Part shown: in pieces, positions 10,566 to 55,453 of the stretch
Layout of the letters: each line of letters starts with the position of its first letter
Numbering within the stretch: the stretch's first letter is position 1
Origin: Chitinibacter bivalviorum
Lineage (GTDB): Bacteria > Pseudomonadota > Gammaproteobacteria > Burkholderiales > Chitinibacteraceae
DNA: 64,000 bases
Direction of reading: 5' to 3'
Assembly: GCF_013403565.1 (NCBI RefSeq)
Contig: NZ_CP058627.1
Coordinates: forward strand, 3,511,172 to 3,575,171
Notes under the pieces: model-generated
Database searches by the model: none
What the model was told of the DNA's origin: nothing
What the model saw: the letters and a program-made list of their open reading frames with translations, nothing else
Position numbers and translations under genes: made by a program

Positions 10566-10614
10566 GGGTATATTCATAAGCTTCAATTCAATAAGTATGT
10601 TTGTAAATATACCC
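10566..10614. repeat. 49-bp palindromic repeat, copy A
   Basis: This is a member of the GGGTAT...ATACCC family described in the findings. The ends are perfect: TTATGGGTATATT at 10562-10574 and its exact complement at 10606-10618. The distance from GGG to CCC is 49 bp. It lies just right of the IS and six bases from the leuA terminator. Confidence 0.85.
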
Positions 10615-10620
10615 ATAAAA

Positions 10621-10645
10621 AAGCCCCGCCGATCTGGCGGGGCTT
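10621..10645 (-). terminator. Terminator of leuA
   Basis: AAGCCCCGCC pairs perfectly with GGCGGGGCTT around a five-base loop. On the minus strand the stem is followed by a run of six T, so it would end leftward transcription from leuA. A second hairpin (GGCGGTTTT/AAAACCGCC, 10728-10750) lies between it and the leuA stop. Confidence 0.85.
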
Positions 10646-10771
10646 TGATTTTGGTGGGTACCTGCGGCGATATCGGGTAAGACATCGTCCTGAGTATGAG
10701 GCGGCGGGCTTGTGGCCTTGGCTTCGCGGCGGTTTTGGGTAAAAACCGCCGGTCCCGATGCTGCAAAATCG

Positions 10772-12562
10772 TTAAACCGGCTGCGGATGTACTCGCTCGG
10801 CGTTGCTTTGAATCTTGTTCAGCGCTGAAATATAAGCTTTGGCGCTGGCCACGATGATATCGGTGTCTGCACCTTGGCCATTCACGATACGACCGTCTTT
10901 AGCGAGGCGTACGGTGACTTCGCCCTGACTGTCAGTGCCTGCGGTAATGGCATTCACTGAATACAATTGCAGTTCAGCGCCGCTGTTAAACAATGATTCG
11001 ATCGCTTTGAACGTCGCATCCACCGTGCCGTCGCCTTGTGCGGTCGCGCGGCGTTCTACGCCCGCTTCGGCGATCACGAGATCGGCCTGCGGTGTTTCGC
11101 CAGTTTCAGATACTACTTTCAGCGATACCAGTTTGTAGTGTTCCTGCTCAATAGAAATCAACTCGTCGGACACCAGCGCGTGCAAGTCTTCGTCGAAAAT
11201 CTCGCGCTTTTTATCTGCCAATGCTTTGAAGCGCGCAAATGCAGCGTTCAGCGCTTCCTCTGATTCGATTTGAATGCCCAATTCGGCTAGCTTGGTTTTA
11301 AACGCATTGCGGCCCGACAATTTGCCCAGGCTCAAGCGATTGGTGCTCCAGCCAACGGATTCGGCGCTCATGATTTCGTAGGTTTCACGGTGTTTGAGTA
11401 CGCCGTCTTGGTGGATCCCCGATTCATGCGCAAAGGCATTCGCGCCCACAATCGCTTTATTCGGTTGCACTGGGTAGCCGGTAATGGTGGAAACCAGCTT
11501 GCTGGTCGGTACGATTTGCGTCGCATCAACGCCACATTCCACGCCGAAAATATCGCGGCGGGTACGAGTGGCCATGACGATTTCTTCCATTGCTGCGTTG
11601 CCCGCGCGCTCACCCAAGCCGTTGATCGTGCATTCGACCTGACGTGCGCCGCCCAGCACAGCGGCAAGGGAGTTGGCCACGGCCATCCCCAAATCATTAT
11701 GGCAATGTGCCGACCAGATGACTTTATCGCCACCCGGTGTTTTAGCGATCAGTTCGCGGAAAAACGCTTCGGTGCGTTGCGGTACGGCGTAGCCGACGGT
11801 GTCGGGTACGTTCAGTGTCGTTGCACCTGCCTCAATCACTGCGCCAAAAATACGGGCAAGGAAATCGATATCGCTGCGCAGCGCGTCTTCGGCTGAAAAT
11901 TCCACGTCATCGGTGTATTCGCGCGCCATTTTGACGGCTTTGACCGCAGCTTCAACAACTTGATCGGGCGTCATGCGCAGCTTGTGTTCCATGTGGATCG
12001 GGCTGGTCGCGATAAAAGTATGGATACGGCCACGTTTAGCGTCTTTGATAGCCTCACCAGCTGCACGCACGTCGCGCTCGTTGGCACGCGCCAAAGAACA
12101 GACGGTGCTGTTTTCGATGATGCCGGCAATGGTTTTGATTGCGTCGGCATCGCCTGGGCTGGCGGCGGCAAAGCCCGCTTCGATCACGTCAACGCCGAGT
12201 TTTTCAAGTTGGCGTGCGATGCGGATTTTTTCTTCTTTAGTCATCGACGCGCCGGGCGACTGTTCGCCGTCACGCAGCGTGGTATCAAAAATAACCAGGC
12301 GATTGTTATTACTCATGGTGTTCTCCTGTGTGGGGGCGGGTTGCGCGCCCGTCATATAGTTCTGGATATTAAAACTGCGGCCTTGGCTTGTGGCCAATTT
12401 GGCCAGCTTGTCCACTTGGGTGAGTGGCAAGCTGCCGCGTTCACGCCATTTGTAAATCGCTGCGCGGGACACCGGATCATCTGGAAATAGGCTATTGAGT
12501 TGCTCGGCCAGATTACTTGGTCCATCAAAATCAGCAATTAGACGGTCGATGTCTAATGACAC
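10772..12562 (-). CDS. leuA: 2-Isopropylmalate synthase with N-terminal HTH-like extension
   Basis: LeuA condenses acetyl-CoA with 2-oxoisovalerate, the first committed step of leucine synthesis. The catalytic TIM barrel begins at [16 protein letters not shown] (about residue 91), with the metal-binding HCHNDLGMA near 290. The C-terminal regulatory domain for leucine feedback ends the protein. Unusually, the frame opens at a GTG at 12562 with AAGGAG upstream. That adds 82 residues resembling a small helix-turn-helix ([25 protein letters not shown]). The normal LeuA start, ATG at 12316, has its own strong AGGAGA site, so both a 596- and a 514-residue form may be made. Confidence 0.95.
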
Positions 12563-12666: not shown

Positions 12667-12690
12667 GTTGTCTAAAAGGCGATAATTAGA

Positions 12691-13464
12691 CTAATTGTCT
12701 GATTTTGCGACCTGCGGCTTGCTTTTCTTCAGTACGCGCCAAAACCAATACAGGTAGCCCGACATGGCATAGCAAATAAAGAAGCTAAATAAGACCAAGG
12801 CTGGGCGCGATGCCCCAATGACTAAAACCAAGGTTGCAATCAATAGCGAGACAAAGGGTACCGTTTTGCGCATGTGCAGCTCTTTAAAGCTCCAGTACGG
12901 GACATTCGAAACCATGGTTAACCCGGCAAATAAGGTAAAGCACAGTGCAGTATAGGGCTGTAGCTCAATCAGAAAGCTGAGGTCATCGTGATACTCGATG
13001 TTAATCCAAACCAAACCGGCGACCAGTGCCGCCGCTGCGGGGCTAGGTAGGCCTTGGAAAAAACGTTTGTCGACAATGGTGATGTTGGTGTTAAAGCGCG
13101 CCAAGCGCAGCGCCGCGCCAGCACAATAAATAAAGGCCACCGCCCAGCCGAGCTTGCCAAAATCTGACAAGCCCCATTCGTACATCACCAGCGCAGGGGC
13201 GACACCAAATGACACCATGTCTGACAGACTGTCGAACTGTGCGCCGAATTCGGATTGGGTATGCGTCATGCGAGCGACACGACCATCGAGGCCGTCGAGT
13301 ATCATCGAGGCAAAAATCGCCAGCGCGGCTTGCTCAAAACGACCGTTCATGGCTTGGACAATCGCATAAAAACCGCCAAACAGTGCGGCAAGCGTAAATA
13401 GATTCGGGAGTAAATAGATACCCTGGCGGCGCAAGTTGATCGATGGCTTGGTGCTGAGCGACAT
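12691..13464 (-). CDS. pssA: CDP-diacylglycerol-serine O-phosphatidyltransferase
   Basis: This membrane enzyme makes phosphatidylserine from CDP-diacylglycerol and serine, the first step to phosphatidylethanolamine. The CDP-alcohol phosphatidyltransferase motif is visible near residues 55-80 as DGLDGRVAR, then G, then DSLSD, carrying the four catalytic and metal Asp residues. About seven membrane segments are predicted. I chose the ATG at 13464 (MSLSTKPSINLRRQGIYLLPN), giving 257 residues. An 18-codon longer frame is possible. It is divergent from psd, so the two consecutive enzymes of the pathway share one promoter region. Confidence 0.94.
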   Translation of the reverse strand: MSLSTKPSINLRRQGIYLLPNLFTLAALFGGFYAIVQAMNGRFEQAALAIFASMILDGLDGRVARMTHTQSEFGAQFDSLSDMVSFGVAPALVMYEWGLSDFGKLGWAVAFIYCAGAALRLARFNTNITIVDKRFFQGLPSPAAAALVAGLVWINIEYHDDLSFLIELQPYTALCFTLFAGLTMVSNVPYWSFKELHMRKTVPFVSLLIATLVLVIGASRPALVLFSFFICYAMSGYLYWFWRVLKKSKPQVAKSDN

Positions 13465-13570: not shown

Positions 13571-13599
13571 CGGCGGTTTGATTGATTCTGGGGCTGGCC

Positions 13600-14439
13600 G
13601 TGTCCGATCGCCTGTTTGTTCTTTTTCAACACATCTTGCCTAAGCAAGCGCTGACCCAGCTATTTGGTTATTTTGCCGGGCTGCAGGCGGGTAGTAAGAC
13701 CACCGCGGTGATTCGCTGGTTTATCGGTAAATATCAGGTCAATATGAGCGAGGCCGCCAATCCTGATCCGGCAGCCTATGCCACGTTTAATGAGTTTTTT
13801 ACCCGCGAGCTCAAGGTTGGCGCGCGCCCATTGGCAGCTGCCAAGCTGGTGTGCCCAGTGGATGGCGCGATTAGCCAGTTTGGCGCGATTGAAAAAGATC
13901 AGATTTTCCAGGCTAAGGGCAAGCATTTCACGACCACGGCTTTGCTCGGTGGCGATGCCGCACTGTCGCAGCAATTTGAAAATGGCCAGTTTGCGACGAT
14001 TTATCTGAGCCCCAAGGATTATCACCGTATTCATATGCCGTGCGCTGGGCGTTTGACGCAGATGACGTATGTACCCGGCGAGCTGTTTTCAGTAAACCCC
14101 GCCACGGCGCGTGGCGTCGATGCGTTGTTTGCGCGCAATGAACGCGTCGTATGTATGTTTGAATCCGAATTCGGTCATTTCGCGCTGGTACTAGTCGGGG
14201 CGACGATTGTGGGCAGTATGGCCACTGTTTGGCATGGCGTGGTCAATCCGCCACGCAGCAAGTCGGTCTGGACCAAAGATTATCGTGATCAACAGATCGT
14301 ATTGGAGCAGGGCGCTGAAATGGGGCGCTTTTTGCTTGGCTCGACCGTGGTATTGCTCTATCCGAAAGGTGCTCCAGCCTTTAATCCTGATTGGCAGCCG
14401 ACACGCGCGGTGCGATTGGGCGAAATGATGGCCAATTAA
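13600..14439 (+). CDS. psd: Phosphatidylserine decarboxylase proenzyme
   Basis: This enzyme decarboxylates phosphatidylserine to phosphatidylethanolamine at the inner membrane. The proenzyme cleaves itself in the L-G-S-T motif, seen here as FLLGSTVVLLYP near the C-terminus, to create the pyruvoyl cofactor on the small subunit. Other family motifs are CPVDGAIS, SPKDYHRIHMPCAG and FGHFALVLVGAT. I chose the GTG at 13600 (MSDRLFVLFQHILPK), which matches the family start; a TTG six codons upstream is less likely. The length is 279 residues. It is divergent from pssA, and a 49-bp palindrome begins 24 bases after its stop. Confidence 0.94.
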   Translation: MSDRLFVLFQHILPKQALTQLFGYFAGLQAGSKTTAVIRWFIGKYQVNMSEAANPDPAAYATFNEFFTRELKVGARPLAAAKLVCPVDGAISQFGAIEKDQIFQAKGKHFTTTALLGGDAALSQQFENGQFATIYLSPKDYHRIHMPCAGRLTQMTYVPGELFSVNPATARGVDALFARNERVVCMFESEFGHFALVLVGATIVGSMATVWHGVVNPPRSKSVWTKDYRDQQIVLEQGAEMGRFLLGSTVVLLYPKGAPAFNPDWQPTRAVRLGEMMAN

Positions 14440-14463: not shown

Positions 14464-14512
14464 GGGTATATTGCTGTAGTGCTTTTTATAAAAAGCTGCC
14501 GGCGATATACCC
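14464..14512. repeat. 49-bp palindromic repeat, copy B
   Basis: AATGGGTATAT at 14461-14471 is matched perfectly by its complement at 14505-14515. GGG to CCC is 49 bp. The interior is a different perfect palindrome, GCTTTTTATAAAAAGC. It lies 24 bases after the psd stop. The remaining bases up to 14684 hold nothing I can identify. Confidence 0.85.
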
Positions 14513-15552: not shown

Positions 15553-16617
<1,065 letters not shown>

Positions 16618-16718: not shown

Positions 16719-16767
16719 GGGTATTGCTTTGCAGATATTGCCTGTGTTGATCTACAGGCAAATACCC
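16719..16767. repeat. 49-bp palindromic repeat, copy C
   Basis: GGGTATT at 16719-16725 faces AATACCC at 16761-16767, 49 bp in all. The interior contains GCCTGT/ACAGGC. It ends three bases from the ilvN stop, so in the ilvBNC transcript it lies immediately after ilvN. Its interior resembles copy I (shared TTGATCTACAGG). Confidence 0.8.
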
Positions 16768-21962: not shown

Positions 21963-23459
21963 TCAGATGGACTGCCCTTTCCATTGGCGGCGCCAAATAG
22001 CTAGGCCAAATAAAATACCAAACCAAATCGCCACGATGAGCCAGTCGCCCCAAATTTGGTAGGGCGTGGTGCCGGTTCGGTGTTGGACTTCACCCTCTAG
22101 TACTGCGCGCTGTTGCGGTGGCAGGCTGGCAGTGATGCGACCTTTGTCGTCGATAATCGCCGTTTTGCCGGTGTTGGTGGCACGGATCAGGTAGCGACCA
22201 TTTTCCAGTGCGCGGGCGCGCGCCATTTCTGCGTGTTGCTCGGCGGCCCAAGAGCCATCAAACCACGCCATATTAGTGAGATTTGCCAGTAGCGTGGCAT
22301 TGACTGCATTTTGGCGGATTTCATGACCAAAGGCGTCTTCGTAGCAGATATTGGCCGCGATTTTGCCGCCGGCCAACGCAAATGGGGTCTGGATGGCTTC
22401 GCCACGATTTAGCCCCAGTAGCGGCATATCCAGAAATTGATACACCGGACCAAATACTTGCGGCAATGGGATGTATTCGCCAAAGGGGACTAGATGCTGC
22501 TTTTCATAGGGGTTGAGCTTGGGGTTGCTTAAATCAACCGCCGCGTTGAAATGTTGCGTGCCATCGTCGCTGCTGGTGGCGACGCCCAAAATCATCGCGG
22601 CTTTCTTTTGCGCCATCAGGGCGCGCAGATCGCCCAGATACCAGTCGGGCATGGCTTCTAAAAAAGACGGAATTGCGGTTTCAGGAAAAACAATCAGTTG
22701 CCCTTTGGCTTGCTGCGCCAGAGTCATGTACGCGCCGAGGCTATCGACATAGGCGGCCTGATTCCATTTCATTGATTGTGCGATATTGCCCTGCAAGAGG
22801 CTAACTTTAACCGGCGCGCCGAGTGGGGTCGTCCAATTGATGTGATTGAGTAGGGCGCTGGTGCTGATGAGGGCGAATGCCAGCCCAAGACCAAGGCGTT
22901 TTTCATATAAAAATACGGCCACCACAAGACACAACACCAAGCCCACGCCATAGCTGCCAACAATGGGGTATAGCCCGCTGAGCGTTTCTAGCTGTGATCC
23001 ACCGACCGATGCCCATGGGAATCCGGTAAATATCCAGCCGCGGACCCATTCAAAAATCATAAACAGCGTTGGCGCGAGTAGCGTGTAGCGCAGGCTGTCT
23101 TGGCAAGGCAGACGGCGCGTGAGCAAGGCTGCGAGTGCGGGAAACAATGCCAGAAACAGTGCAAAAGCCAAAGTACTGCCCGCGGCCATCCAGATTGGCA
23201 TACCACCATAGGTATGCAGGCTAATATAAACCCAGCTAATGTTTGCGCAGAAATACCCCGTGCCCCAAGCAAATGCATAGCCTGCGGCTTCGCGCGTGCG
23301 GCGCGCTTGTTGTATGCCCCAGAACAAAGCCAGCAATGAAATCGGCATCAGCCAGAATTGCGATACCGGGGCAAAGGCAAAAACACTGATCGCGCCAGCA
23401 ATGAGTTGGAGTGCGAGTTGTTGAATGGGGCGGAGTGTCATTGGGGTTTTTGCATGCAT
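21963..23459 (-). CDS. lnt: Apolipoprotein N-acyltransferase
   Basis: Lnt adds the third acyl chain to the N-terminal Cys of lipoproteins in the inner membrane. About six N-terminal membrane segments precede a carbon-nitrogen hydrolase domain from about residue 220. The Glu-Lys-Cys triad is visible as FPETAIPSF, the Lys in YEKQHLVPFGEY and the Cys in NICYEDAFGHEIR. A last membrane segment anchors the C-terminus. At 498 residues the length is normal. It follows corC on the same strand, the order seen in E. coli (miaB-ybeZ-ybeY-ybeX-lnt). Confidence 0.96.
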   Translation of the reverse strand: MHAKTPMTLRPIQQLALQLIAGAISVFAFAPVSQFWLMPISLLALFWGIQQARRTREAAGYAFAWGTGYFCANISWVYISLHTYGGMPIWMAAGSTLAFALFLALFPALAALLTRRLPCQDSLRYTLLAPTLFMIFEWVRGWIFTGFPWASVGGSQLETLSGLYPIVGSYGVGLVLCLVVAVFLYEKRLGLGLAFALISTSALLNHINWTTPLGAPVKVSLLQGNIAQSMKWNQAAYVDSLGAYMTLAQQAKGQLIVFPETAIPSFLEAMPDWYLGDLRALMAQKKAAMILGVATSSDDGTQHFNAAVDLSNPKLNPYEKQHLVPFGEYIPLPQVFGPVYQFLDMPLLGLNRGEAIQTPFALAGGKIAANICYEDAFGHEIRQNAVNATLLANLTNMAWFDGSWAAEQHAEMARARALENGRYLIRATNTGKTAIIDDKGRITASLPPQQRAVLEGEVQHRTGTTPYQIWGDWLIVAIWFGILFGLAIWRRQWKGQSI

Positions 23460-25085: not shown

Positions 25086-26103
25086 GTCGATTGCTCAGTT
25101 GAGCGTTGCGTTCAGCCTCTTGCTTGGCTTTGCGTGCCGCTGCTTCTTCGTCGCGCTTTTTGGTCGCTTTTTCGTAGGCATTAACGATTTTTTGTACCAG
25201 CGGATGACGCACAACGTCGTCACTGGTGAAGTGATGAATGCCAATGCCGCGCACGCCTTGCAGCACTTCTTGCGCATCAACAAGGCCTGATTTCATATGC
25301 TTGGGCAAATCGACCTGCGTCGGGTCACCGGTAATCACCGCTTTGCTACCAAAGCCGATCCGCGTCAAAAACATCTTCATCTGCTCGGGCGTACTGTTTT
25401 GCGCCTCGTCCAAAATGATAAAGCTGTGGTTTAGCGTGCGGCCGCGCATAAAGGCCAGCGGAGCGATTTCGATAATGCCTTTTTCAAATAAGCGCGTGAC
25501 ATGATCAAAACCGAGTAAATCATACAGCGCGTCGTACAGTGGGCGTAAGTAAGGATCGACCTTCTGCGTTAAATCGCCCGGTAGGAAACCGAGCTTCTCT
25601 CCCGCCTCAACAGCTGGGCGCACCAAGATCAATCGTTTGACAGTATCGCGCTCTAAAGCATCAACCGCGCTGGCTACCGCCAGATACGTCTTACCCGTAC
25701 CGGCTGGGCCGATGCCAAACGTAATGTCATTGTCTTGGATTTGCTTCAGATAAACATTCTGCCCCGGCGTGCGGCCACGCAAATCGGCACGGCGCGTGCG
25801 CAGGATGGGTGTATCCACATCCGATTGCGCTTCTTCTGGGCCGCGGATAATTTCGATTAAGCCAAGCTGAATATCATCAACTTCCAGTTCTTTACGCTGC
25901 GCTTCGTTGTAGAAGTATTCGAGCGCATCGAGTGTCTGATTCACCACCTTGGTGCGGCCAGCGACTTTGAAATGCTCGTTGCGGCGGGCAATTGTCACAT
26001 CGAGGGCATTTTCGATTTGCTTCAGGTTTTCGTCGAGCGGCCCGCATAAATTGGCCAGGCGGGCGTTGTCGATGGGGGTGAACGAGAGGGTATCTGTATG
26101 CAA
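25078..26103 (-). CDS. ybeZ: PhoH-like ATPase YbeZ
   Basis: This PhoH-family P-loop NTPase partners with YbeY in RNA metabolism. The Walker A motif is GPAGTGKTYLAV near residue 135 and the Walker B is SFIILDEAQNSTPEQ near 225. A KH-like N-terminal part precedes the ATPase. The C-terminus is Lys/Arg/Ala-rich. At 341 residues the length matches YbeZ. It is coupled to ybeY by an eight-base overlap and separated from miaB by a 329-base gap holding a repeat. Confidence 0.93.
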   Translation of the reverse strand: MHTDTLSFTPIDNARLANLCGPLDENLKQIENALDVTIARRNEHFKVAGRTKVVNQTLDALEYFYNEAQRKELEVDDIQLGLIEIIRGPEEAQSDVDTPILRTRRADLRGRTPGQNVYLKQIQDNDITFGIGPAGTGKTYLAVASAVDALERDTVKRLILVRPAVEAGEKLGFLPGDLTQKVDPYLRPLYDALYDLLGFDHVTRLFEKGIIEIAPLAFMRGRTLNHSFIILDEAQNSTPEQMKMFLTRIGFGSKAVITGDPTQVDLPKHMKSGLVDAQEVLQGVRGIGIHHFTSDDVVRHPLVQKIVNAYEKATKKRDEEAAARKAKQEAERNAQLSNRHE

Positions 26104-26432
26104 GGCTTATTCCATAAATTATGGCAGGATATACCTACCAATTAAGCGGTGAAGTTCACATTAGTACTTAATATTGTCGCGCTGGTTGGGTATGAGCTTT
26201 AAACCCGTTTAGCAAAAACCGCAGCAAGGAGAGAGACAAACGGTTTTATCGTTTGGCTCACGACGCGGCAAGGGGAGCGCGGAGCGCTTTTTGCCCGGGT
26301 CGCCTTTCTTTTCCACCCTTTTCTTTGGCGACGCAAAGAAAAGGGTGTCCCTGTCGCGGATTGCGACTGCAAAACAGTCGTGCCGTAGGCACTTAAATTA
26401 TCAACTGCTAACTAGAACATCGCCTATTCAGC
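26104..26432. repeat. 329-bp gap with a long inverted repeat
   Basis: The core is a perfect hairpin: CACCCTTTTCTTTG (26314-26327) and its complement (26334-26347) around six bases. It is preceded by the GCCTTTCTTTT phrase seen in a widespread class of proteobacterial intergenic repeats that yields spurious translated ORFs. It lies between miaB and ybeZ and may act as a terminator or processing site. A half-site GGGTATGAGCTT at 26188 resembles the left arm of the 49-bp repeat but has no partner. Confidence 0.6.
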
Positions 26433-27846: not shown

Positions 27847-27895
27847 GGGTATGTGTTTGTAGTTATTTACTAATAATAACTTTTAACATATACCC
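27847..27895. repeat. 49-bp palindromic repeat, copy D
   Basis: GGGTATGTG (27847-27855) faces CATATACCC (27887-27895), with eight of nine pairs and 49 bp in total. The interior pairs as GTTATT/AATAAC. It ends three bases from the stop of the downstream minus-strand gene at 27899. Confidence 0.82.
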
Positions 27896-27898: not shown

Positions 27899-28252
27899 TT
27901 ATTGTGCTTGGGATGCTTTGATTTCTTTTTCGATGGCTTCTTCTTGCTTCATGCGTTCTTCAAGTTGCTGTGCTTCTTCTTTAGTCACAAACCAGATGCG
28001 CCAAACAAAGCCCGTGTTCGGTTCTAATTGATACCAAACCATCGCATTGCGCGGGATCTGGGTGGGCATCAATAGGGTGTTATTGATGCCGCGAATTTGT
28101 AAACCCGGTGCCGTGGTATAGATTTTGCCATCGAGTTTGACCTCGGGTCGGGCAAAACCTTCTAGCTCAGCTAATTTACCTTTGGGCAGGTTGCGTGCGG
28201 CAAAACTGGCCGTCGAAAGAGTAAGAAGCAACAAAAACAGCAACTTGCGCAT
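27899..28252 (-). CDS. Small exported protein of unknown function
   Basis: This 117-residue protein has a clear signal peptide (about residues 1-18, LLFLLLLTLSTASFAA) and a short mature part with a beta-strand pattern around QIRGINNTLLMPTQIP and VWYQLEPNTGFVWRIWFVT. The C-terminal helix is Glu/Lys/Gln-rich and could be a coiled coil. I do not recognise the family with confidence. It is probably periplasmic. It is monocistronic, divergent from tRNA-Met, and a 49-bp palindrome directly follows its stop. Confidence 0.7.
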   Translation of the reverse strand: MRKLLFLLLLTLSTASFAARNLPKGKLAELEGFARPEVKLDGKIYTTAPGLQIRGINNTLLMPTQIPRNAMVWYQLEPNTGFVWRIWFVTKEEAQQLEERMKQEEAIEKEIKASQAQ

Positions 28253-33149: not shown

Positions 33150-34214
33150 TTAACGGCCCCCTTTGCGTGACAGCTGATCGGTTGCGACGGCAAGAATAAC
33201 CAAAATACCGGTAATTAAGATCTGGTATACCGATGAAACCCCCATCAGCGTTAGTCCATTGCGAAATACCCCCACAATCATCGCGCCCACCAGCGAGCCG
33301 ATCACGATGCCGCGACCACCAAACAAACTCGTGCCACCCAATACCACCGCAGTAATCGCATCCAGATTTTCGGTTTGCCCCGCATTCGGATCGCCCACGC
33401 CAGTACGCGCTACCGACAGCAAAGACGCGATGCCGTAGCACAGCCCTGCCAGCACATACACCATCAGCAGGACGCGGTGCGTTGCAATCCCCGTCAGGCG
33501 CGTGGCTTCAGGGTTATTCCCAACCGCATAGATGTGGCGGCCTTGCGCGGTTTCGCGTAGCCACAGCCAAGCAATGCCGTACATCGCCAGCATCAGCACC
33601 GTGCCAAAGGCGACTTCGGTTTGGCCGATGCTAAATGTGGTGCCTAAAAAGGTCATGCCAGCGGGCAGGTCGGTAATGGTTTGTGATTGTGAATAAAGCT
33701 GCGTGATTGCGAACGCAATATTCATTGTTCCCAAAGTCACGATGAAGGACGGCAATTTGATGCGCGTGACCAGCAGGCCATTAATCAAGCCAAACCCAGC
33801 GGTCACCGCAAAGCCAGCAAAAATCGCCACGATCGGGTGTACGCCATAGTCGTGCGAGACTTTGGTCATCACCACGCCACCGAGTGCCATCACCATACCG
33901 CAGGAAAGGTCGATCCCCGCGGTCAGGATAATCAGGGTTTGGCCGATGGCGATTAGCCCGACGACCATCACTTGTTGCAAAATCAGAGAGAAATTCGCAC
34001 CAGTGAGAAATTGCTCGCTCTGGAACGAGAAAAACACGCAAGCCATCAGCAGAGCCAGAAATGGCCCCAGCGTGCCAATCGACGGTAGATGTTCTTTCCA
34101 GCTGGGCATGGCAGCGCTCCTTGCTGCAGGTTGATCTAAAGAAACGCCTAATGCGGGAGTAGTGCGCTCAAGTACTGCCGAAGCAGCACCTGAGCCTGTT
34201 GTTGGCTGACTCAT
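33150..34214 (-). CDS. Sugar ABC transporter permease (FrcC-like)
   Basis: This 354-residue inner-membrane protein has a 45-residue cytoplasmic leader and eight to ten membrane segments. The CUT2 permease landmarks are IALGQTLIILTAGIDLS-like (here LIAIGQTLIILTAGIDLSCG), GLINGLLVTRIKLPSFIVTLGTM and AVGNNPEATRLTGI, plus TAVVLGGTSLFGGRG near the C-terminus, each quoted in part. It starts immediately after the binding-protein stop. It probably forms a homodimer with two copies of the ATPase. Confidence 0.93.
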   Translation of the reverse strand: MSQPTTGSGAASAVLERTTPALGVSLDQPAARSAAMPSWKEHLPSIGTLGPFLALLMACVFFSFQSEQFLTGANFSLILQQVMVVGLIAIGQTLIILTAGIDLSCGMVMALGGVVMTKVSHDYGVHPIVAIFAGFAVTAGFGLINGLLVTRIKLPSFIVTLGTMNIAFAITQLYSQSQTITDLPAGMTFLGTTFSIGQTEVAFGTVLMLAMYGIAWLWLRETAQGRHIYAVGNNPEATRLTGIATHRVLLMVYVLAGLCYGIASLLSVARTGVGDPNAGQTENLDAITAVVLGGTSLFGGRGIVIGSLVGAMIVGVFRNGLTLMGVSSVYQILITGILVILAVATDQLSRKGGR

Positions 34215-35497: not shown

Positions 35498-35546
35498 GGG
35501 TATAGCTTTGAATGCTTTTGAATTAAAGCCATACGTACCTATACCC
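35498..35546. repeat. 49-bp palindromic repeat, copy E
   Basis: GGGTATA (35498-35504) faces TATACCC (35540-35546), 49 bp. The interior pairs as GCTTT/AAAGC. Unlike most copies it does not follow a stop codon; it lies between divergent genes. Confidence 0.82.
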
Positions 35547-37455: not shown

Positions 37456-37504
37456 CTGTATCTCGATGAAAGTCAATTTATAGAATAGCTTCTGGCCTAT
37501 ACCC
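37456..37504. repeat. 49-bp palindromic repeat, copy F (one end degenerate)
   Basis: Read on the minus strand, GGGTATAGG starts immediately after the TAG stop of the TIGR03790 gene and runs 49 bp to GATACAG, where the usual ATACCC is altered at the last bases. It is accepted because length and position match the other copies. Confidence 0.6.
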
Positions 37505-38545
37505 CTATTTTTTAAACGGGCTTAGATTTCGATATGGCGCGGCAAGGGGGTCGCCAATGAAGACGCCTTGCGCGGGCCACGCGACACTTTTCCAGTACGC
37601 TTCCACTGCGGTTGCGCCATTGATGTAATGAAAGAGCAGCACTTGCGGGTGTGGGAATTTTTGTTGGTGGTTGTATGGCTCGCTCACCGTGCCGTAGCTG
37701 GCGGTTGCGCCAGCCTCTAGCCATTTCATGCTGCTCATCTGGCTGCTGTCAGTCAGCATGCCGCCGAACGAGGTGAGGTGATCGGCCAAAGCACCCGGTT
37801 GAAACTTGAGTGTCTCCAAGCCTTCGACTTTGGCAAGGCCGGTTTGATAAATGATTACATCATTTTTATTGCGTAGCGCATCGCTGGTGAGCGTTTCGAT
37901 TTTGATGGGGAGCTTGGCGATGCTTTGGCTGGGCGGAAATAGCGGCGCTCGGGCGCTGCGGGTTTTGTCGCTGGTGCTGAGAAAATACGCCGTGCCTTTG
38001 GGGTAGTTGCCCCAGGCTTGTAGGCCGGTGTCGATGAGTTTTTTGGCGCTGGCAAAGTCTTTCGCCGCCAGCATCATGCTGGGGCGAATTTTGAGGTCGG
38101 TAAAGGGTTGTGTGCTGGCGTGATTGAAATACGGCGATTCGGGGGTGGGCTTGCCGGTATTGGCGCACACGCCTTCTACATAGCCGATGGTGACGCCATA
38201 CGTCATGCTGAGGCAGTTTACGCGGTAGGGCTTGGCCCAAGCTAGCGCCAGTGCCTGTGTTTTGCCGTCGAAAAATTGATTGATCTGGGCGTTGAGTTTT
38301 TCTAATTCGCCTTCGGTGATCCAGACCCGATCAGTGGGAAGTTCAATGCTGAGAATTTGCTCGGGGCGAAGTTGTCTTTGCTTGGCGTAGTATTCACCAA
38401 TCTCAACGGAAAGCGGGTCATTTTTATTGATGATCAAGCCCAGTTGTTCCGCATTGAGTTGATAGTGCAGCTCGGCTTTATCTGTCGCCGCATGGGCGGA
38501 GAGGGTTGCGAGTAAAATAAGGCATGCAAGAGCAAATACGCGCAT
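37505..38545 (-). CDS. TIGR03790 family protein
   Basis: This 346-residue exported protein has a signal peptide (about residues 1-19, ending SAHA). It carries the features I associate with TIGR03790, a family of unknown function: an early LGLIINKNDPLSVEIGEYYAKQR block, quoted in part, then RVNCLSMTYGV, and the C-terminal block with SSQMSSMKWLEAGATASYGT, then EPYNHQQKFPHP and YWKSVAWPAQGVFIGDPLA. It appears monocistronic. A 49-bp palindrome begins at the base after its stop. Confidence 0.82.
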   Translation of the reverse strand: MRVFALACLILLATLSAHAATDKAELHYQLNAEQLGLIINKNDPLSVEIGEYYAKQRQLRPEQILSIELPTDRVWITEGELEKLNAQINQFFDGKTQALALAWAKPYRVNCLSMTYGVTIGYVEGVCANTGKPTPESPYFNHASTQPFTDLKIRPSMMLAAKDFASAKKLIDTGLQAWGNYPKGTAYFLSTSDKTRSARAPLFPPSQSIAKLPIKIETLTSDALRNKNDVIIYQTGLAKVEGLETLKFQPGALADHLTSFGGMLTDSSQMSSMKWLEAGATASYGTVSEPYNHQQKFPHPQVLLFHYINGATAVEAYWKSVAWPAQGVFIGDPLAAPYRNLSPFKK

Positions 38546-43151: not shown

Positions 43152-43200
43152 GGGTATCAGCTTGTAGACTAAATTTGAATTGATCTACAGGTCAATACTG
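43152..43200. repeat. 49-bp palindromic repeat, copy I (one end degenerate)
   Basis: GGGTATC (43152-43158) faces AATACTG (43194-43200), where the usual final CCC is changed. The interior pairs as CTTGTAGA/TCTACAGG. It lies ten bases after the infA stop. It shares TTGATCTACAGG with copy C. Confidence 0.68.
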
Positions 43201-43665: not shown

Positions 43666-44889
43666 ATGCGTCGGATTTTTCTCTTGTTGGCTATTTCTTT
43701 GCTCAGTGCCTGTGCGACGCAGTCACCGCCGGTCAGTGTTGTTGTGCCAACGCCCAGTGCTACTCCGCAATTAGCGACACCGAGAGCATTGCTTGCAACG
43801 CCAACACCTGTGGTCAGCGCAAGCCCGACGCCCAGCCCCTCACCGACTCAAAAACCGACGCCAAAACCTGTGATGACTGAGGCGCAAGGACGCGCGTTGA
43901 TGGCGCAATTATTGCCGCCCAAAATCAATGATCGCAATGGCTGGATCGACGATATGCTCGATGCTTTTACTGCACTCAAAATTGCCTACACGCCCGAAAA
44001 CATTTGCGCCGTGGCGGCGGTGATTGAGCAAGAGTCGACTTGGCAGGGCGACCCCGTGGTGCCTGGCTTGCCGAAGATTGTTTGGAATGCGATTGGCGAG
44101 CGAGCCGATAAATATCATATCCCCTTGATCGCGGTCCAAACTGCGTTGCTCAAGCCCTCGCCGACGGGGCAAAGCTATAAGGCGCGGATTGATAATTTGC
44201 GTACCGAGCGCGAAATGAATGATTTATTCGAGGATTTAGCCAATGAGGCGAAAAGTCTGAATTTACCGCTCAATATGAAAAATCCGATTCGCACCGGTGG
44301 GCCGATGCAGGTGAGTGTGGAGTTCGCGCAGCAACACAGCAAAGTGTGGCCTTATCCCTATCCGATCAAAGAAAGTATTCGTCACGAAGTGTTTACGCGT
44401 CGAGGTGGGGTGTATTTCGGTACAGCCATTTTGCTGCAATACCCTGCGACCTATACCGATGTGGCGTATCGTTTTGCCGACTTTAATGCCGGGCGCTACG
44501 CGAGTCGCAATGCGGCATTCCAAAAGGTATTGTCGCATCTGTCAGGCAAAGAATTGGTAGAAGATGGCGATTTACTCAGCTACAGCAACGGCGTGCCAAG
44601 CGGCACCAGTGATGTGCAGACGGCGCTCTATAGCATGAACGCGGCGCTCGGCATGAGCCGCGATGAAATGTTGCGTGATTTGAAGCAGGAAAAGCTCGTC
44701 GGTTTTAGCCAAACCGAGCTGTATCAAAAAGTCTATGCCTTGGCAGATAAGGGCGGCAAAACTTGGCCGCGCGCGAGCATGCCGCAGATTGATCTGAAAA
44801 GCCCCAAAATCACCCGCAAACTGACGACCGAATGGTTTGCCAATAGGGTAAAAGGGCGTTTTGAGACCTGCATCAAGCGACTTAATTGA
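43666..44889 (+). CDS. DUF1615 family lipoprotein
   Basis: This 407-residue protein has a lipoprotein signal with lipobox L-S-A-C (Cys at about residue 16). A Pro/Thr/Ser-rich linker follows at about residues 22-70 and probably spans the periplasm. The DUF1615 domain contains AVAAVIEQESTWQGDP near 125, RTGGPMQVSVEFAQ near 205 and RRGGVYFGTAILLQYP near 245. The Glu in the first block and the helical character suggest a lysozyme-like fold acting on peptidoglycan, which is inference. The start at 43666 lies next to a GATACCCATATAATG stretch. Confidence 0.85.
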   Translation: MRRIFLLLAISLLSACATQSPPVSVVVPTPSATPQLATPRALLATPTPVVSASPTPSPSPTQKPTPKPVMTEAQGRALMAQLLPPKINDRNGWIDDMLDAFTALKIAYTPENICAVAAVIEQESTWQGDPVVPGLPKIVWNAIGERADKYHIPLIAVQTALLKPSPTGQSYKARIDNLRTEREMNDLFEDLANEAKSLNLPLNMKNPIRTGGPMQVSVEFAQQHSKVWPYPYPIKESIRHEVFTRRGGVYFGTAILLQYPATYTDVAYRFADFNAGRYASRNAAFQKVLSHLSGKELVEDGDLLSYSNGVPSGTSDVQTALYSMNAALGMSRDEMLRDLKQEKLVGFSQTELYQKVYALADKGGKTWPRASMPQIDLKSPKITRKLTTEWFANRVKGRFETCIKRLN

Positions 44890-45926: not shown

Positions 45927-45975
45927 GGGTATGTGCTTGAGAATTAATTAGTAGAATATCTTTATGGATATACCC
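45927..45975. repeat. 49-bp palindromic repeat, copy G
   Basis: GGGTATGTG (45927-45935) faces ATATACCC (45968-45975), 49 bp. It starts two bases after the LysR stop and is followed five bases later by the terminator. Confidence 0.85.
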
Positions 45976-48805: not shown

Positions 48806-51706
48806 TTACTGTTTAGTTTCAACTTGAGCGAGTTTTTCACCTTCACTACTTGCCAAGCTAGTGTTGGTTTGTACATCTTTGCGCCGACGACGCACTGGGG
48901 TGGTAACTGCAATCTCAGCTTCAGCGACAGTGGCTGAGCGCGTTTCAACTAATTGCAGTGCGATTGGCGCATTATTTGCGTTGCTCTCAGCGCTGTTTTT
49001 CAAGTCACTACGACGGCGGCGTGCGGGTACCACAACTTCTTCAATCGCAGCAGGTGCGACAGTCTCGTTGCGCGTAGCCACTTGCGTCAAACCCACTTCA
49101 GCTGGTGTTGCAACGACAAACTCAGCTTTAGGCGTCGCCACGACAGGCGCTGGAGTTGCGGCAACTTCCGTCGCTACGACTGGTGATTCAACGACAGGTG
49201 CCGCTTCAATAACAGGCGCTGCTTCAACGATAGGCGCTGGTGCTGCCGGCAAACTTGGTGCCACAACATCATCATTGACTGCGATCACTGCAGTAGGCGC
49301 TTCAGCAACTGGCGTAGTAACGACTTGCGGGTTGGTCGTTGCCGCTTCGCTTGCTTGAACAACTGCAACCGACGGCGCCGGAGCAACTTCTACTGGTTCA
49401 GCAACGACAACAGGTTCGCTGCTGCTCACTTCGGTCGGAGTTGCTGGCGCTTCGGCGGCCAAAGCTGCTGCTTGAGCAATAATCACCTCATTGGGGATGA
49501 AAGCTGGAGTGCTCTCTTCATTGCCTGAAGTGGTTTCTGTGCTATTTGGCGTGCGGTCGTTGCGATCACGACGATCACGACGGCTGCGACGACGACGATT
49601 GCGCGTTTCGCCATTCGCTTCTGGCGCTGCGGCTTGTTCAGGAGCGCCTACTTCCAGTGCGACTGCAGTTGCTGGCAACTCTTGAACTTGTTCGCTGCGT
49701 GCTTCTTGGCGTTGGCGCTCTTCGCGAGGCTGACGTTCGCCGCGGCTTGGGCGTTGTTGACGCTCTTCACGCTTTTGAATGTCTTCCTCAATGCGAGGTT
49801 TGCTTGAGCGAGGAGTGCGCTCTGGACGCTCCGCTTTTTCGCTACGTTCACCACGTTCGGCGCGCTCACCACGCTCGCGTGTCGCTTGACCTTCACGGCC
49901 TTCGCGATTTTCGTTGCGGTCGAAACGACCGTTACGGCGCTCGTTGCGTCCACGCGGTTGGCGTGGGGCTGGTTTCGCTTCTTCAACCGGTTTTTTCTCT
50001 TCGGGTTCGCTACTAAACCAAGCAACGATTTTCTTCCAAAGCGATGGCTGGTCTGCTTTTGCTTCCGGTTTCGCCACGCGCTCGGTGCTTGCTGGGGCTG
50101 GCTGGGCTGGGGTGATGCCTTTTACCGCAGCTTCTTGGCGCTTGGCTTGCTCTTCCTTGCTTTTGCCCGGTTTGTAGCCTTCTTCCGCAGGCTGTTCAAC
50201 CATGCGGTAAGACGGCAAAGCATCTTCAAATGGCAAAACGTCTTCCGAGCGTACGCGGGTGATGCTGTAGTTCGGTGTTTCCAAATGCATATTTGGAATC
50301 AACATCACGCCAACTTTCAGGCGCGCTTCAACAGCAAACAACTCTGCGCGTTTTTCATTGAGCAAGAAAGTCGCAACATCTACGGGCACTTGCGCATGCA
50401 GCGCGCCAGTATTTTCTTTCATTGCTTCTTCCTGAATGATACGCAGGATGTGCAAAGCTGATGATTCGATGCCGCGGATAAAGCCTGTGCCGTGACAGCG
50501 TGGGCAGGCGATGTGGCTGGTTTCTTCGAGTGATGGTTGCAGGCGCTGGCGTGACAATTCCATCAAACCAAAGCGGCTGATTTTGCCGGTTTGCACGCGA
50601 GCACGGTCGTGATGTAGTGCTTCACGTACGCGGTTTTCAACGTCACGTTGGTTTTTTGGGTTTTCCATGTCGATAAAGTCGATCACGATCAAACCACCGA
50701 CGTCGCGCAAACGCATCTGGCGCGCGATTTCATCGGCAGCTTCCAGATTAGTACGCAGTGCAGTTTCTTCGATGTCACCACCGCGCGTTGCTTTGGCCGA
50801 GTTCACGTCGATGGACCACAAAGCTTCAGTGCGATCGAGTACGATCGCGCCGCCTGAAGGCAAGCTCACTTCACGCGAATACGCGGTTTCGATTTGGTGT
50901 TCGATCTGGAAGCGCGAGAACAGTGGTACGTCATCTTGGTAGAACTTCACTTTATGCACATTGTTCGGCATAACGTGGCTCATGAACTGCTGAGCTTGTT
51001 CATAAATGTCGCGTTTGTCGATCAGCAACTCGCCAATATCAGGCTGGAAGTAATCGCGAATCGCACGGATTACAAGGCTAGATTCTTGATAAATCAGGAA
51101 GGCGCCAGTCTGGGTATTGGCTGCGCCCTCAATAGCACGCCAAAGTTGCAGCAGATACCCCAGATCCCACTGCAATTCTTCTGCGTTGCGGCCAATCGCA
51201 GCGGTACGGGCGATCAAGCTCATACCGTTAGGCGTTTCGAGTTGATCCATTGCGGCGCGCAATTCATTGCGCTCTTCGCCTTCAATGCGACGTGAAACGC
51301 CACCACCACGTGGGTTATTTGGCATCAGCACGAGGTAACGACCCGCCAAGCTGATGTAGGTGGTGAGGGCTGCGCCTTTATTGCCGCGCTCGTCTTTTTC
51401 CACCTGTACGATTAGTTGCTGGCCTTCTTTCAGGCTATCTGCAACGCGGCCGCGGCCACCTTCACCTTCGCCGAGGTAGGCGCGGGCGATTTCTTTGAAT
51501 GGCAAGAAGCCATGACGATCACAGCCGTAATCGACAAAGCACGCTTCGAGACTAGGCTCGATGCGGGTGATAATGCCTTTGTAGATATTGGATTTGCGTT
51601 GTTCTTTGCCGACGGTTTCGATGTCAAGGTCGATGAGTTTTTGGCCATCGACAATTGCAACGCGCAACTCTTCAGCTTGAGTTGCATTAAAAAGCATACG
51701 CTTCAT
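48806..51706 (-). CDS. rne: Ribonuclease E
   Basis: RNase E is the main endoribonuclease of mRNA decay and rRNA and tRNA processing, and the scaffold of the degradosome. The N-terminal S1 domain is at about residues 35-120. Catalytic Asp residues lie in LWSIDVNSAK and GLIVIDFIDM near 300 and 345, and the Zn-link is CPRCHGTG near 405. The C-terminal half is disordered, Arg-rich at about 550-700, then Ala/Val/Pro-rich, which would bind RNA and partners. I chose the ATG at 51706 (MKRMLFNATQAEELR), giving 966 residues. The 5' region is long, as in autoregulated rne genes. Confidence 0.95.
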   Translation of the reverse strand: MKRMLFNATQAEELRVAIVDGQKLIDLDIETVGKEQRKSNIYKGIITRIEPSLEACFVDYGCDRHGFLPFKEIARAYLGEGEGGRGRVADSLKEGQQLIVQVEKDERGNKGAALTTYISLAGRYLVLMPNNPRGGGVSRRIEGEERNELRAAMDQLETPNGMSLIARTAAIGRNAEELQWDLGYLLQLWRAIEGAANTQTGAFLIYQESSLVIRAIRDYFQPDIGELLIDKRDIYEQAQQFMSHVMPNNVHKVKFYQDDVPLFSRFQIEHQIETAYSREVSLPSGGAIVLDRTEALWSIDVNSAKATRGGDIEETALRTNLEAADEIARQMRLRDVGGLIVIDFIDMENPKNQRDVENRVREALHHDRARVQTGKISRFGLMELSRQRLQPSLEETSHIACPRCHGTGFIRGIESSALHILRIIQEEAMKENTGALHAQVPVDVATFLLNEKRAELFAVEARLKVGVMLIPNMHLETPNYSITRVRSEDVLPFEDALPSYRMVEQPAEEGYKPGKSKEEQAKRQEAAVKGITPAQPAPASTERVAKPEAKADQPSLWKKIVAWFSSEPEEKKPVEEAKPAPRQPRGRNERRNGRFDRNENREGREGQATRERGERAERGERSEKAERPERTPRSSKPRIEEDIQKREERQQRPSRGERQPREERQRQEARSEQVQELPATAVALEVGAPEQAAAPEANGETRNRRRRSRRDRRDRNDRTPNSTETTSGNEESTPAFIPNEVIIAQAAALAAEAPATPTEVSSSEPVVVAEPVEVAPAPSVAVVQASEAATTNPQVVTTPVAEAPTAVIAVNDDVVAPSLPAAPAPIVEAAPVIEAAPVVESPVVATEVAATPAPVVATPKAEFVVATPAEVGLTQVATRNETVAPAAIEEVVVPARRRRSDLKNSAESNANNAPIALQLVETRSATVAEAEIAVTTPVRRRRKDVQTNTSLASSEGEKLAQVETKQ

Positions 51707-53466: not shown

Positions 53467-53468
53467 GC

Positions 53469-54128
53469 GTGGCATCGCGACGGTTTGATTTAGTGGTGTT
53501 TGATTGGGATGGCACTTTGATGGATAGCACGGGCATGATTGCCCGTTCAATTCAGCGCGCATTCGATGATGTTGGCTTGCCGGTGCCGAGTGAGCAAGAA
53601 GCACGGTATGTCATTGGTTATGGTTTGGGTGAGGCAATGGCGCACTTGGCGCCGGATGCATCTGAGGTGCAAATTCGACAAGTGGTGGATGCCTACCGTG
53701 GCCATTTTCTGGCTAAAGATCAGGAATTAAAACTCTACGATGGCGTTGAAGAAGGTTTGGCGCGCTTGCGCGAGGCCAAATTTAGGATGGCGGTGGCAAC
53801 GGGTAAATCCCGCGCAGGTCTTGATCGGGTGCTCAAAGCGACGCAATTAGGTCATTTCTTTGAGGTGACGCGCACTGCGGATGAGGCCTTTTCTAAACCT
53901 CACCCCGCCATGCTGGAATACATCTTGGAGTATTCGGCTGTAGCGCCCGAGCGTGCTGTTATGGTGGGCGATACCACCCATGATTTGCAGTTGGCCATTA
54001 ATGCTGGTACGGCGAGCCTAGGCTTAACCTATGGTGCGCATAAAGGTGAGGCGCTGCAAGATTTACAGGCTTTGGCGCTGTTTGATGAATTTAATAGTTT
54101 GATCGATTGGGTGTTGGCGCATGGTTAG
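53469..54128 (+). CDS. HAD-family hydrolase, phosphoglycolate-phosphatase-like
   Basis: This 219-residue haloacid dehalogenase-type phosphatase has motif I FDWDGTLMDST near residue 10, motif II Thr in VATGKSR near 110, the Lys in FSKPHPAMLEYILE near 140 and motif IV MVGDTTHDLQLA near 160. The alpha-helical cap is of the Gph/PGP type, but the substrate is not certain. The GTG start has AAGGAG seven bases upstream. It begins two bases after rluC and overlaps the next gene by eight. It is often found beside rluC in betaproteobacteria. Confidence 0.92.
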   Translation: MASRRFDLVVFDWDGTLMDSTGMIARSIQRAFDDVGLPVPSEQEARYVIGYGLGEAMAHLAPDASEVQIRQVVDAYRGHFLAKDQELKLYDGVEEGLARLREAKFRMAVATGKSRAGLDRVLKATQLGHFFEVTRTADEAFSKPHPAMLEYILEYSAVAPERAVMVGDTTHDLQLAINAGTASLGLTYGAHKGEALQDLQALALFDEFNSLIDWVLAHG

Positions 54129-54459
54129 GATTTGCGCATCGAGTGATTTGCAAGAACGTGCGCTTGCGTTTCGCTTTGTGGTGCAAAACGGGGCGCGAGA
54201 ACGAGCGGCCATTGCGCTGCGTTACGATGGGCAGGTCTATGCCTATATTAATGAATGCGCGCATATCCCGATCGAGCTTGATTTTAATCCGGGTGATGTG
54301 TTTGACCTCAGTCGACAGTTTTTGGTTTGCTCGACGCATGGCGCATATTATGATCCGACCAATGGTTTATGTTTAGGTGGCCCGTGCACCGGCCGACGGT
54401 TAAGTCCACTGACGGTCATCGAAAAAGACGAAGCAGTTTGGCTGCTTGAGGAAAAGTGA
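54121..54459 (+). CDS. Rieske [2Fe-2S] domain protein
   Basis: This 112-residue single-domain ferredoxin-like protein contains the Rieske ligands: C-x-H as NECAHIPIELD near residue 46 and C-x2-H as FLVCSTHGAYYDP near 69, followed by GLCLGGPCTGRRL. It is soluble and probably an electron carrier, but it has no adjacent oxygenase and the partner is unknown. It overlaps the HAD gene by eight bases and ends directly before sppA, so the four genes form one tightly coupled operon. Confidence 0.9.
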   Translation: MVRICASSDLQERALAFRFVVQNGARERAAIALRYDGQVYAYINECAHIPIELDFNPGDVFDLSRQFLVCSTHGAYYDPTNGLCLGGPCTGRRLSPLTVIEKDEAVWLLEEK

Positions 54460-55398
54460 ATGAGTGATTCTATTGAACGTGATGCTTTAAAAGATATTTT
54501 AACCGCTTCGGTCAAAGAGCAGCGTGCCGCTCGCCGCTGGGGAATTTTCTTTAAATTACTCACGTTTTCATATCTGTTTTTGATGCTGGCTTTGTTTATG
54601 GGCTGGGTCGGTAATAAAGAAGCGGAAAGTGCCTCAACTGGCCCGCACACTGCGGTGGTGGATTTGAAGGGTGAAATTTCGGCGGGAAGTGACGCCAGTA
54701 GTGACATCGTGTTGGCCGGTTTGAAAGCGGCCTTTGAAGACAGCAACACCAAAGCGGTGATTTTGCGTGCCAATAGCCCTGGTGGTAGCCCTGTGCAATC
54801 GGGTCTGATGTATGACGAAATTGTTCGCTTGAAGAAAATGCATCCGAAAACACCATTTTATGTCGTGGTCGAAGATGTGTGCGCTTCGGGTTGTTACTAC
54901 ACTGCGGTGTCGGCAGACAAAATTTTTGCCGATAAAGCCTCGATCGTTGGCTCGATTGGCGTTTTGATGGACGGCTTTGGTTTTACTGGTGCGATGGAAA
55001 AACTGGGGGTTGAGCGTCGCTTGATGACCGCGGGCGCTAATAAAGGCTTTTTGGATCCGTTCTCGCCGCAAAGCGAAGCACAAAAAGAAAAAGCGTTGGC
55101 GATGCTGGCAGAAATTCATCAGCAATTTATCAGTGTGGTCAAACAGGGGCGTGGCAAACGCTTGGCGCAAGATAATCCTGATTTATTTTCTGGGCTGGTG
55201 TGGTCGGGCGAATCGGGCTTGAAACTCGGTCTGGTGGACGCCTTGGGTTCGGTGAATTCAGTAGCACGCGATGTCGTGAAAGTGCCTAACGTGGTCGACT
55301 TCACGCCGCAACCTTCTTACGCGGATCGATTGGCTCGCCAGTTGGGCGTTGCAGCAGCCACGACGTTGGGTGCAAAGATGGAGTTTCATTTGAAATAA
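54460..55398 (+). CDS. sppA: S49 family signal-peptide peptidase (SppA type)
   Basis: SppA is an inner-membrane serine protease that degrades cleaved signal peptides. This 312-residue form is the single-domain type: a membrane anchor at about residues 33-50 (LLTFSYLFLMLALFMGWVG), then ANSPGGSPVQSGLMYDEI near 105. The probable nucleophile Ser is in EDVCASGCYYTAVSADKI, and the general-base Lys is in the FADKASIVGSIGVL segment or shortly after it. It immediately follows the Rieske gene. A 49-bp palindrome begins six bases after its stop. Confidence 0.92.
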   Translation: MSDSIERDALKDILTASVKEQRAARRWGIFFKLLTFSYLFLMLALFMGWVGNKEAESASTGPHTAVVDLKGEISAGSDASSDIVLAGLKAAFEDSNTKAVILRANSPGGSPVQSGLMYDEIVRLKKMHPKTPFYVVVEDVCASGCYYTAVSADKIFADKASIVGSIGVLMDGFGFTGAMEKLGVERRLMTAGANKGFLDPFSPQSEAQKEKALAMLAEIHQQFISVVKQGRGKRLAQDNPDLFSGLVWSGESGLKLGLVDALGSVNSVARDVVKVPNVVDFTPQPSYADRLARQLGVAAATTLGAKMEFHLK

Positions 55399-55404
55399 AT
55401 TGAA

Positions 55405-55453
55405 GGGTATATGGCTAGAGATATTTATTATTAATGTCTTTGGCCTTATACCC
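55405..55453. repeat. 49-bp palindromic repeat, copy H
   Basis: GGGTATA (55405-55411) faces TATACCC with a one-base offset (55446-55453), 49 bp in all. The interior forms a long stem (GGC, AGA and ATATT pair with AAT, TCT and GGCC). It lies six bases after the sppA stop and 23 bases before motD. Confidence 0.82.

Follow-up and report, generated by a model that had tools for sequence, protein, structure and literature searches.

Nine palindromes of exactly 49 bp, alike at their ends and different inside, lie between genes in a 64,000-nt stretch of Chitinibacter bivalviorum (contig NZ_CP058627.1, positions 3,511,172 to 3,575,171 of the forward strand; here called the window), and they raise the question of what keeps their length constant while their interior varies. 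A first-pass annotation of the window offered three answers: a stabiliser in 3′ untranslated regions (3′-UTRs), a site for a binding protein of fixed geometry, or a small mobile palindrome. Genome-wide counts and comparison across species reduce the element to a gapped core, GTAT-N37-ATAC, of which GGGTAT-N37-ATACCC is the complete form. The spacing is fixed and the interior nearly free, copies in genes are as well conserved as the others, the site is two-fold symmetric and its half-sites can be substituted; taken together, these properties make a protein–DNA site by far the best reading. The second of the three answers is thus strongly supported by geometry and conservation, with the protein itself presumed from the sequence.

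A gapped core of fixed length and its conservation

In the whole source genome (G000) the core occurs 860 times, against 25 for the backward version of the pattern, which served as control. The complete form was found 260 times with a gap of 35 to 39 nt, compared with one match to the control, so that its frequency is not that expected from base composition; 243 of these copies are exactly 49 bp long. Within 1.264 Mb of sampled sequence there are 75 pairs at 49 bp, four at 50 bp and between zero and two at every other length from 12 to 200. A larger sample (1.604 Mb) gave 98 exact and 124 one-mismatch pairs at 49 bp and 4 and 15, respectively, at 50 bp, with at most two exact and at most seven one-mismatch pairs at each of the remaining lengths from 40 to 59. 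As 49 bp dominates these counts, the length is fixed, with a small additional 50-bp class, and the original description of constant length with variable interior holds. Pairs that seemed to form a 47-bp class were for the most part artefactual, arising where a site reads GGGTATAT and is picked up two bases along. The core itself is present 381 times in the 1.604 Mb, compared with a mean of 14.6 at other spacings.

The two half-sites and their exact spacing are also recovered when no word is specified. In a scan of all 4-mers against their own reverse complements at distances of 20–119 bp, GTAT/ATAC is the first-ranked pair in G000 (z 88) and again both in 314 kb from five congeners and in 80 kb of a related genus (g11), while no comparable pair was seen in 100 kb from each of four genera of the family that do not carry the motif. 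Other pairs (z up to 33) emerged from 74 loci of other beta-proteobacteria, all centred on one orthologous gene, and were set aside as repeated orthologous sequence. Preferences within the interior are weak to moderate (A15/T35, T12, C18 and an A+T-rich stretch at 20–23), and 38 copies revealed no conserved flank and no conserved T run past position 49. An Rfam scan of the window at the gathering score matched four tRNAs only.

Conservation was observed directly in homologous regions of five congeners and two g11 genomes. Of 291 cross-genome comparisons (drawn from 95 query sites and hence not independent), 86% retain the two words at their exact spacing; when the same words are taken at other spacings between 30 and 60, the figure is 24% of 352. 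The difference is sharpest at 60–75% alignment identity (72% of 87 vs 0% of 38), and retention in genes only (85% of 204 vs 23% of 314) is close to that of intergenic or partial copies (87% of 87 vs 32% of 38). Position by position, in the 257 comparisons below 90% identity, the eight core bases score 0.93–0.97, compared with 0.77 for the flank; non-core positions are at or near flank level, with -11, -8, 7, 19, 35 and 43 at 0.85–0.88 and some down to 0.60–0.69.

Nineteen copies of GTAT-N37-ATAC lie in the window, against a chance level of about 0.6 per 64 kb (from 14.6 per 1.604 Mb at other spacings): nine intergenic, nine in genes and one spanning a gene start. Genes are those of our own simple caller, with no annotation used. 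The nine palindromes reported earlier (copies A to I) were all recovered at 49 bp, with distances to stop codons that match the ends of the called genes, and they constitute all of the wholly intergenic core copies; seven (A, B, C, D, E, G and H) have exact GGGTAT and ATACCC ends, while F starts CTGTAT and I ends ATACTG. The genes flanking copy C are presumably ilvC- and ilvN-like, judging from the starts of their proteins.

Copy A, 10566..10614, strandless: exact GGGTAT-N37-ATACCC, intergenic, adjoining a terminator-like hairpin with a T run on the minus strand
Copy B, 14464..14512, strandless: exact, 24 nt past a stop codon
Copy C, 16719..16767, strandless: exact, between the ilvC-like and ilvN-like genes
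Copy D, 27847..27895, strandless: exact, 3 nt past a stop codon
Copy E, 35498..35546, strandless: exact, flanked by divergent genes
Copy F, 37456..37504, strandless: left end CTGTAT plus an outer ATACCC (outer ATAC-N8-GTAT), a second geometry
Copy I, 43152..43200, strandless: right end ATACTG plus an outer GGGTAT (outer ATAC-N9-GTAT), a second geometry
Copy G, 45927..45975, strandless: exact, 2 nt past a stop codon, adjoining a terminator-like hairpin with its T run on the minus strand
Copy H, 55405..55453, strandless: exact, 6 nt past a stop codon
Core copy with one end mismatch, 26088..26136, strandless: spans a gene start; shared in position by G001, G002 and G005 but absent there from G003 and G004
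Core copy, 7450..7498, strandless: within a gene
Core copy with both ends weak, 12948..12996, strandless: within a gene
Core copy, 23210..23258, strandless: within gene 21963-23459; five other members of the genus have exact copies here
Core copy, 25641..25689, strandless: within a gene
Core copy, 33223..33271, strandless: within a gene; at the same place in G001, G002, G004 and G005
Core copy, 38155..38203, strandless: within a gene
Core copy, 44410..44458, strandless: within a gene; an outer GTAT lies downstream (ATAC-N9-GTAT)
Exact copy absent from the first-pass annotation, 51112..51160, strandless: within gene 48806-51706
Core copy, 53928..53976, strandless: within a gene

Individual copies keep their place while their interiors change. 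After the gene at 13582-14439 (copy B) a core copy lies 1–24 nt past the stop codon in all eight genomes of two genera, with different interiors, and the G003 counterpart takes the form with an outer half-site, ATACTG followed by GGGTAT. The copy after the ilvN-like gene (copy C) is kept in seven of eight genomes of two genera and is absent from G004, and for gene 27899-28252 (copy D) a core near the gene end is present in 6/6 members of the genus and 0/2 g11 genomes. Copy C and its orthologues in G001, G002 and G003 also contain a nested inverted repeat around TGCCTG / CAGGCA, and the interior here is better conserved than that of other copies; copy C may have an additional local function.

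The deviating ends of F and I follow a pattern seen across the sampled sites. An outer GTAT is found at 31 of 394 ends reading ATACCC, compared with 126 of 366 other ends (odds ratio 6.1, p 3e-20), and starts 8 or 9 bp past ATAC (62 and 95 ends, respectively). A weak end is thus often backed by a further half-site 8–9 bp beyond it, which explains these two odd copies. The outer word is commonest (53/93) where its own end has no C and the opposite end is CC, and is present at both ends in just 2 of 380 sites. It is rarer (41/168 ends) where neither end has CC, so that a weak end does not simply bring one backup with it; a threshold set by the total of contacts would be consistent with these counts. 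Neither this third half-site nor the short core and the copies in genes could be discerned from the window alone, on which the first-pass annotation was based; on geometry it was right.

Placement, chromosomal distribution and clade limits

Among 380 sampled core copies, 181 are intergenic, 171 lie within called genes and 28 extend over a gene edge, in DNA of which 83% is called coding. For the 222 copies whose ends have one mismatch or none, density per kb of intergenic start positions is 0.75 between convergent, 0.55 between co-directional and 0.13 between divergent genes. Ninety-one of these 222 are wholly intergenic with a flanking stop codon, and in 45 of the 91 that stop is no more than 10 nt away, where permutation within the same intergenic regions gives 24.3 (maximum of 2000 permutations, 36). 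The preference for gene 3′ ends is therefore real, but with 171 of 380 copies in genes it describes only the intergenic part; the earlier statement that the palindromes mostly follow stop codons directly, and the enrichment after stops that it implied, stand for intergenic copies and do not extend to the remainder. Coding copies are divided among the reading frames as 25, 51 and 91, compared with shares of 0.25, 0.14 and 0.61 expected from single-word frames, the second frame being over-used.

Along the chromosome, copies avoid one another at short range. In three contiguous segments (944 kb), 18 intervals are shorter than 1 kb and none shorter than 250 bp, compared with 34.7 (sd 4.9) and 6.1 in redrawn sets that allow each intergenic run one copy at most. 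The core is present in 79 of 80 sampled 20-kb bins, so that, unlike matS, it is not limited to a single region of the chromosome. Its density rises with G+C content (rho 0.61), so that low-GC, perhaps foreign, stretches are poor in sites; two small high-G+C contigs gave no copies (≤1 end mismatch) in their first 20 kb, and a third contig gave two. GC skew on G000 contig C1 changes sign near 1.0 and 2.85 Mb, suggesting a terminus near the former and an origin near the latter, and density falls weakly with distance from the origin inferred in this way (rho -0.28). Depletion near 1.2–1.8 Mb, suggested by empty 20-kb stretches, was rejected after a further 460 kb had been filled in: density there (≤1 mismatch) is lower but not zero, at 10.7 per 100 kb compared with 14.0 and 19.0 in two other segments. 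A replication-directed polarity was likewise considered from asymmetry of the interior and rejected, since this asymmetry tracks local GC/TA skew and is treated as composition. Outer elements have a leading-strand bias of 98 to 55 (p 6e-4), which is probably also composition.

The clade limits of the core were observed directly among the searched genomes. Counts are 845–938 in the genus of the source genome (6/6 genomes), 580–606 in genus g10 (2/2) and 745–975 in g11 (7/7), so that all 15 searched genomes of three genera are carriers, with 580–975 copies each. The remaining 28 searched genomes of the family have 6–48 core copies (controls 0–55); some exceed their backward control (G029, 18 vs 0; G009, 30 vs 9), but none is near the counts of carriers. 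None of 368 other genomes of the class has more than two copies of the exact hexamer form, and at lengths of 34–64 there are no more than 11 in those of 100 relatives that are not carriers (86 genomes). A 400-kb sample of G023, a g10 genome of 60% G+C, has 57 core copies vs 1.8, with the outer GTAT again in its usual position (17 ends).

Candidate roles for the site

Each copy may be the double-stranded DNA site of a two-fold symmetric, sequence-specific complex, most likely one that organises the chromosome; in this full form the proposal leads, at somewhat less than even probability. Such a complex would grip two GTAT/ATAC half-sites whose starts are 41 bp apart, a distance of about four helical turns, so that the half-sites would lie roughly on one face of the DNA. 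It would be rigid between the inner half-sites, its contact at each end would be completed either by GG/CC beside the core or by a third GTAT 8–9 bp outward, and a threshold of total affinity would decide which sites are kept. The likeliest role would be a landmark for a nucleoid or loop-anchoring protein: about one copy per 4 kb, in and between genes, rare in divergent (promoter) regions and thinned below 1 kb, favours chromosome organisation. Gene 3′ ends would be favoured because a complex bound there disturbs neither coding sequence nor promoters. Stated more broadly, we lean slightly towards a clade-specific complex that marks the chromosome about every 4 kb via a rigid two-headed site, as either a nucleoid-organising or a self-recognition code, with a third half-site and a spacing rule. 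That such an address system is previously undescribed, and unlike the 8–16 bp sites of known systems, seems a little better than an even bet.

Several results weigh against a chromosome-organising complex. The overall coefficient of variation of intervals is not below that of the simulation, and a macrodomain pattern is lacking, the weak origin trend perhaps following GC content. In the 400 kb of G023 the end-substitution test is not significant (p 0.20) and anti-clustering is a trend only (4 intervals below 1 kb vs 7.4). The intergenic excess of arm pairing, although modest, goes beyond the needs of plain protein binding, and a DNA-uptake signal would lead one just as much to expect copies in genes, local anti-clustering and fewer sites where GC is low. 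No cognate protein was found, binding being deduced from the motif itself. H-NS, ComEC and ComP_DUS were rejected as discriminating genes, being present in 43/43 genomes of the family, and inspection by eye of the first 60 residues encoded by genes beside promoter-like sites in the sampled part, a lead for self-regulation, yielded no chosen candidate.

An uptake signal is a close second to the architectural role, and possible rather than probable: a surface or periplasmic receptor would prefer the two-headed motif, and recombination would spread and maintain copies, as for the DNA uptake sequence (DUS) of Neisseria and the uptake signal sequence (USS) of Haemophilus. Known uptake sequences are evenly spaced round the genome, in non-coding excess and without orientation bias, with 65% (H. 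influenzae) and 35% (N. gonorrhoeae) of them within open reading frames, according to the portion of PMC1939737 available. Local anti-clustering and non-coding excess with 171/380 copies in genes match this. As a clade-specific motif that is over-represented, lies in genes and is enriched between them, the set also resembles uptake sequences; the dependence of density on GC content points the same way. All 43 family genomes, the 28 without the motif equally included, have ComP_DUS-type pilins and a Competence domain of ComEC type, and these families therefore do not decide for uptake. Dyad symmetry and a substitutable outer half-site would rather resemble a soluble oligomeric DNA-binding protein. 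We know of no uptake sequence with a rigid 37-bp gap, which counts against this explanation. The core of known uptake sequences is short and non-palindromic in the portion of PMC1939737 available, whereas GTAT-N37-ATAC is two-fold symmetric.

Another intracellular role is unlikely, though it retains some weight: the site would be a docking point for replication, repair, recombination or a topoisomerase, functioning like Chi, HIP1 or gyrase-binding bacterial interspersed mosaic elements (BIMEs). Cover of the whole chromosome suits repair or supercoiling, but two-fold symmetry gives no direction, and Chi and KOPS are directional. Like repetitive extragenic palindromes (REPs) as described in sections of PMC3733652, the sites tend to lie between convergent and co-directional genes. 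A methylation site, the proposal for HIP1 in the part of PMC4390886 available, does not fit a 37-bp gap.

A hairpin in the 3′-UTR, between stop codon and terminator, which stabilises or terminates transcripts, is very improbable as a general explanation. It would account for the enrichment of intergenic copies within 10 nt of stops, and for copies at most 30 nt from a stop a detected terminator follows the site in 23 of 25, an order that the selection favours. Read in gene sense, 113 intergenic copies have, at arm pairs 7–16, 493 Watson–Crick pairs vs 446 (sd 14) in shuffled arms and 159 G-U pairs vs 142 (sd 8), with A-C mismatches at 116 vs 113 (sd 7); a contribution of a hairpin to this part is therefore possible, given the modest Watson–Crick and mild G-U excess in the outer arms. 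In 158 coding copies in gene sense, however, Watson–Crick pairs are not in excess (472 vs 484, sd 16), G-U is slightly high (218 vs 201, sd 10) and A-C is at 174 vs 172 (sd 10). The inner arm pairs lack covariation, and the outer half-sites of intergenic copies are equally frequent on both transcript sides (26 and 28). Terminators are about as common without a site (26% of 541) as with one (32% of 77; p 0.27), and 38 copies have no conserved T run at the site end, where an intrinsic terminator would have one after a G+C-rich hairpin. Copies inside genes (171/380) argue against RNA hairpins as well as mobile DNA, and the exact length, an unusual requirement for a hairpin, is left unexplained. 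The covariation of the arms would mainly reflect either a dimer site with correlated arms or a quasi-palindrome corrected by template switching.

A mobile or formerly mobile palindrome (REP, REPIN, miniature inverted-repeat transposable element or similar) would be consistent with high copy number, palindromic form and clade limits, but is scarcely credible given copies in genes (171/380) at a length that is not a multiple of three, orthologous positions kept across species and genera while interiors change freely, unrelated sequence rather than a clean 49-bp gap in the G004 ilv intergenic region that lacks the site, and no match to RAYT (PF01797) in five of 15 carriers (G003, G005, G014, G015 and G031). 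The other ten carriers have 1–15 PF01797 matches, and an origin from RAYT/REPIN was rejected on the five without; in six aligned intergenic regions the part examined contained no clean 49-bp insertion. Separately, G001 contains many identical short fragments of a Y1 transposase, several at contig ends, suggesting that a many-copy insertion sequence breaks the assembly.

Known systems and neighbouring features

To our knowledge, bacterial DNA motifs under genome-wide selection number no more than a handful, and none has such a geometry; several genome-wide motifs were clues to basic processes (uptake, recombination, segregation). As a kind, the sites described here join the genome-wide iterated, selected motifs (DUS/USS, HIP1); in geometry they stand alone as far as known. 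No bacterial motif of this geometry was described in the open-access literature searched, subscription papers and preprints being outside the search.

The sites of matS/MatP, parS/ParB/Noc and KOPS are likewise genome-scale sets of selected protein-binding sites, binding being presumed for the set described here. Those of the matS, parS and KOPS type are 8–16 bp long, with matS limited to the terminus region and KOPS directional, whereas the present set is symmetric and covers the chromosome. DUS (Neisseria) and USS (Pasteurellaceae) are similar in being numerous, clade-specific, in genes and enriched between them, and perhaps evenly spaced at a local scale, but have a contiguous non-palindromic core of 9–12 bp, compared with a 45-bp two-fold symmetric gapped site plus optional third half-site. 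The H. influenzae uptake sequence extends to 29 bp with weaker flanking tracts, in the portion of PMC1939737 available.

HIP1 of cyanobacteria (GCGATCGC) is also a highly iterated palindrome, with a function unsettled in the part of PMC4390886 available; it differs as a contiguous 8-mer linked to methyltransferases, compared with words 37 bp apart and a nearly free interior. REP, REPIN and BIME elements are palindromic, abundant and favoured between convergent and co-directional genes, and REPs carry a GTAG or CGTC tag, the GTAG kind often tied to RAYT transposases (sections of PMC3733652). The ends of the present sites, (G)GGTAT / ATACC(C), carry neither tag, and the sites differ further in exact spacing, unrelated interiors and a large share of copies in genes (171/380) rather than mostly extragenic placement.

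With hundreds of sites per genome, exact geometry across genera and nearly free interiors, the motif provides ready bait for the presumed protein, and the site set offers a natural setting in which to test how sites are shaped by thresholds of affinity.

Other features of the window include a DDE transposase gene (8946-10409; Pfam DUF772 and DDE_Tnp_1) that ends 156 bp before copy A, and an 18-bp tandem repeat of 2.9 copies (49187-49239) within the large gene at 48806-51706. Three neighbouring genes encoding TPR repeats lie at 58148-62854, the last of which also encodes histidine kinase domains.

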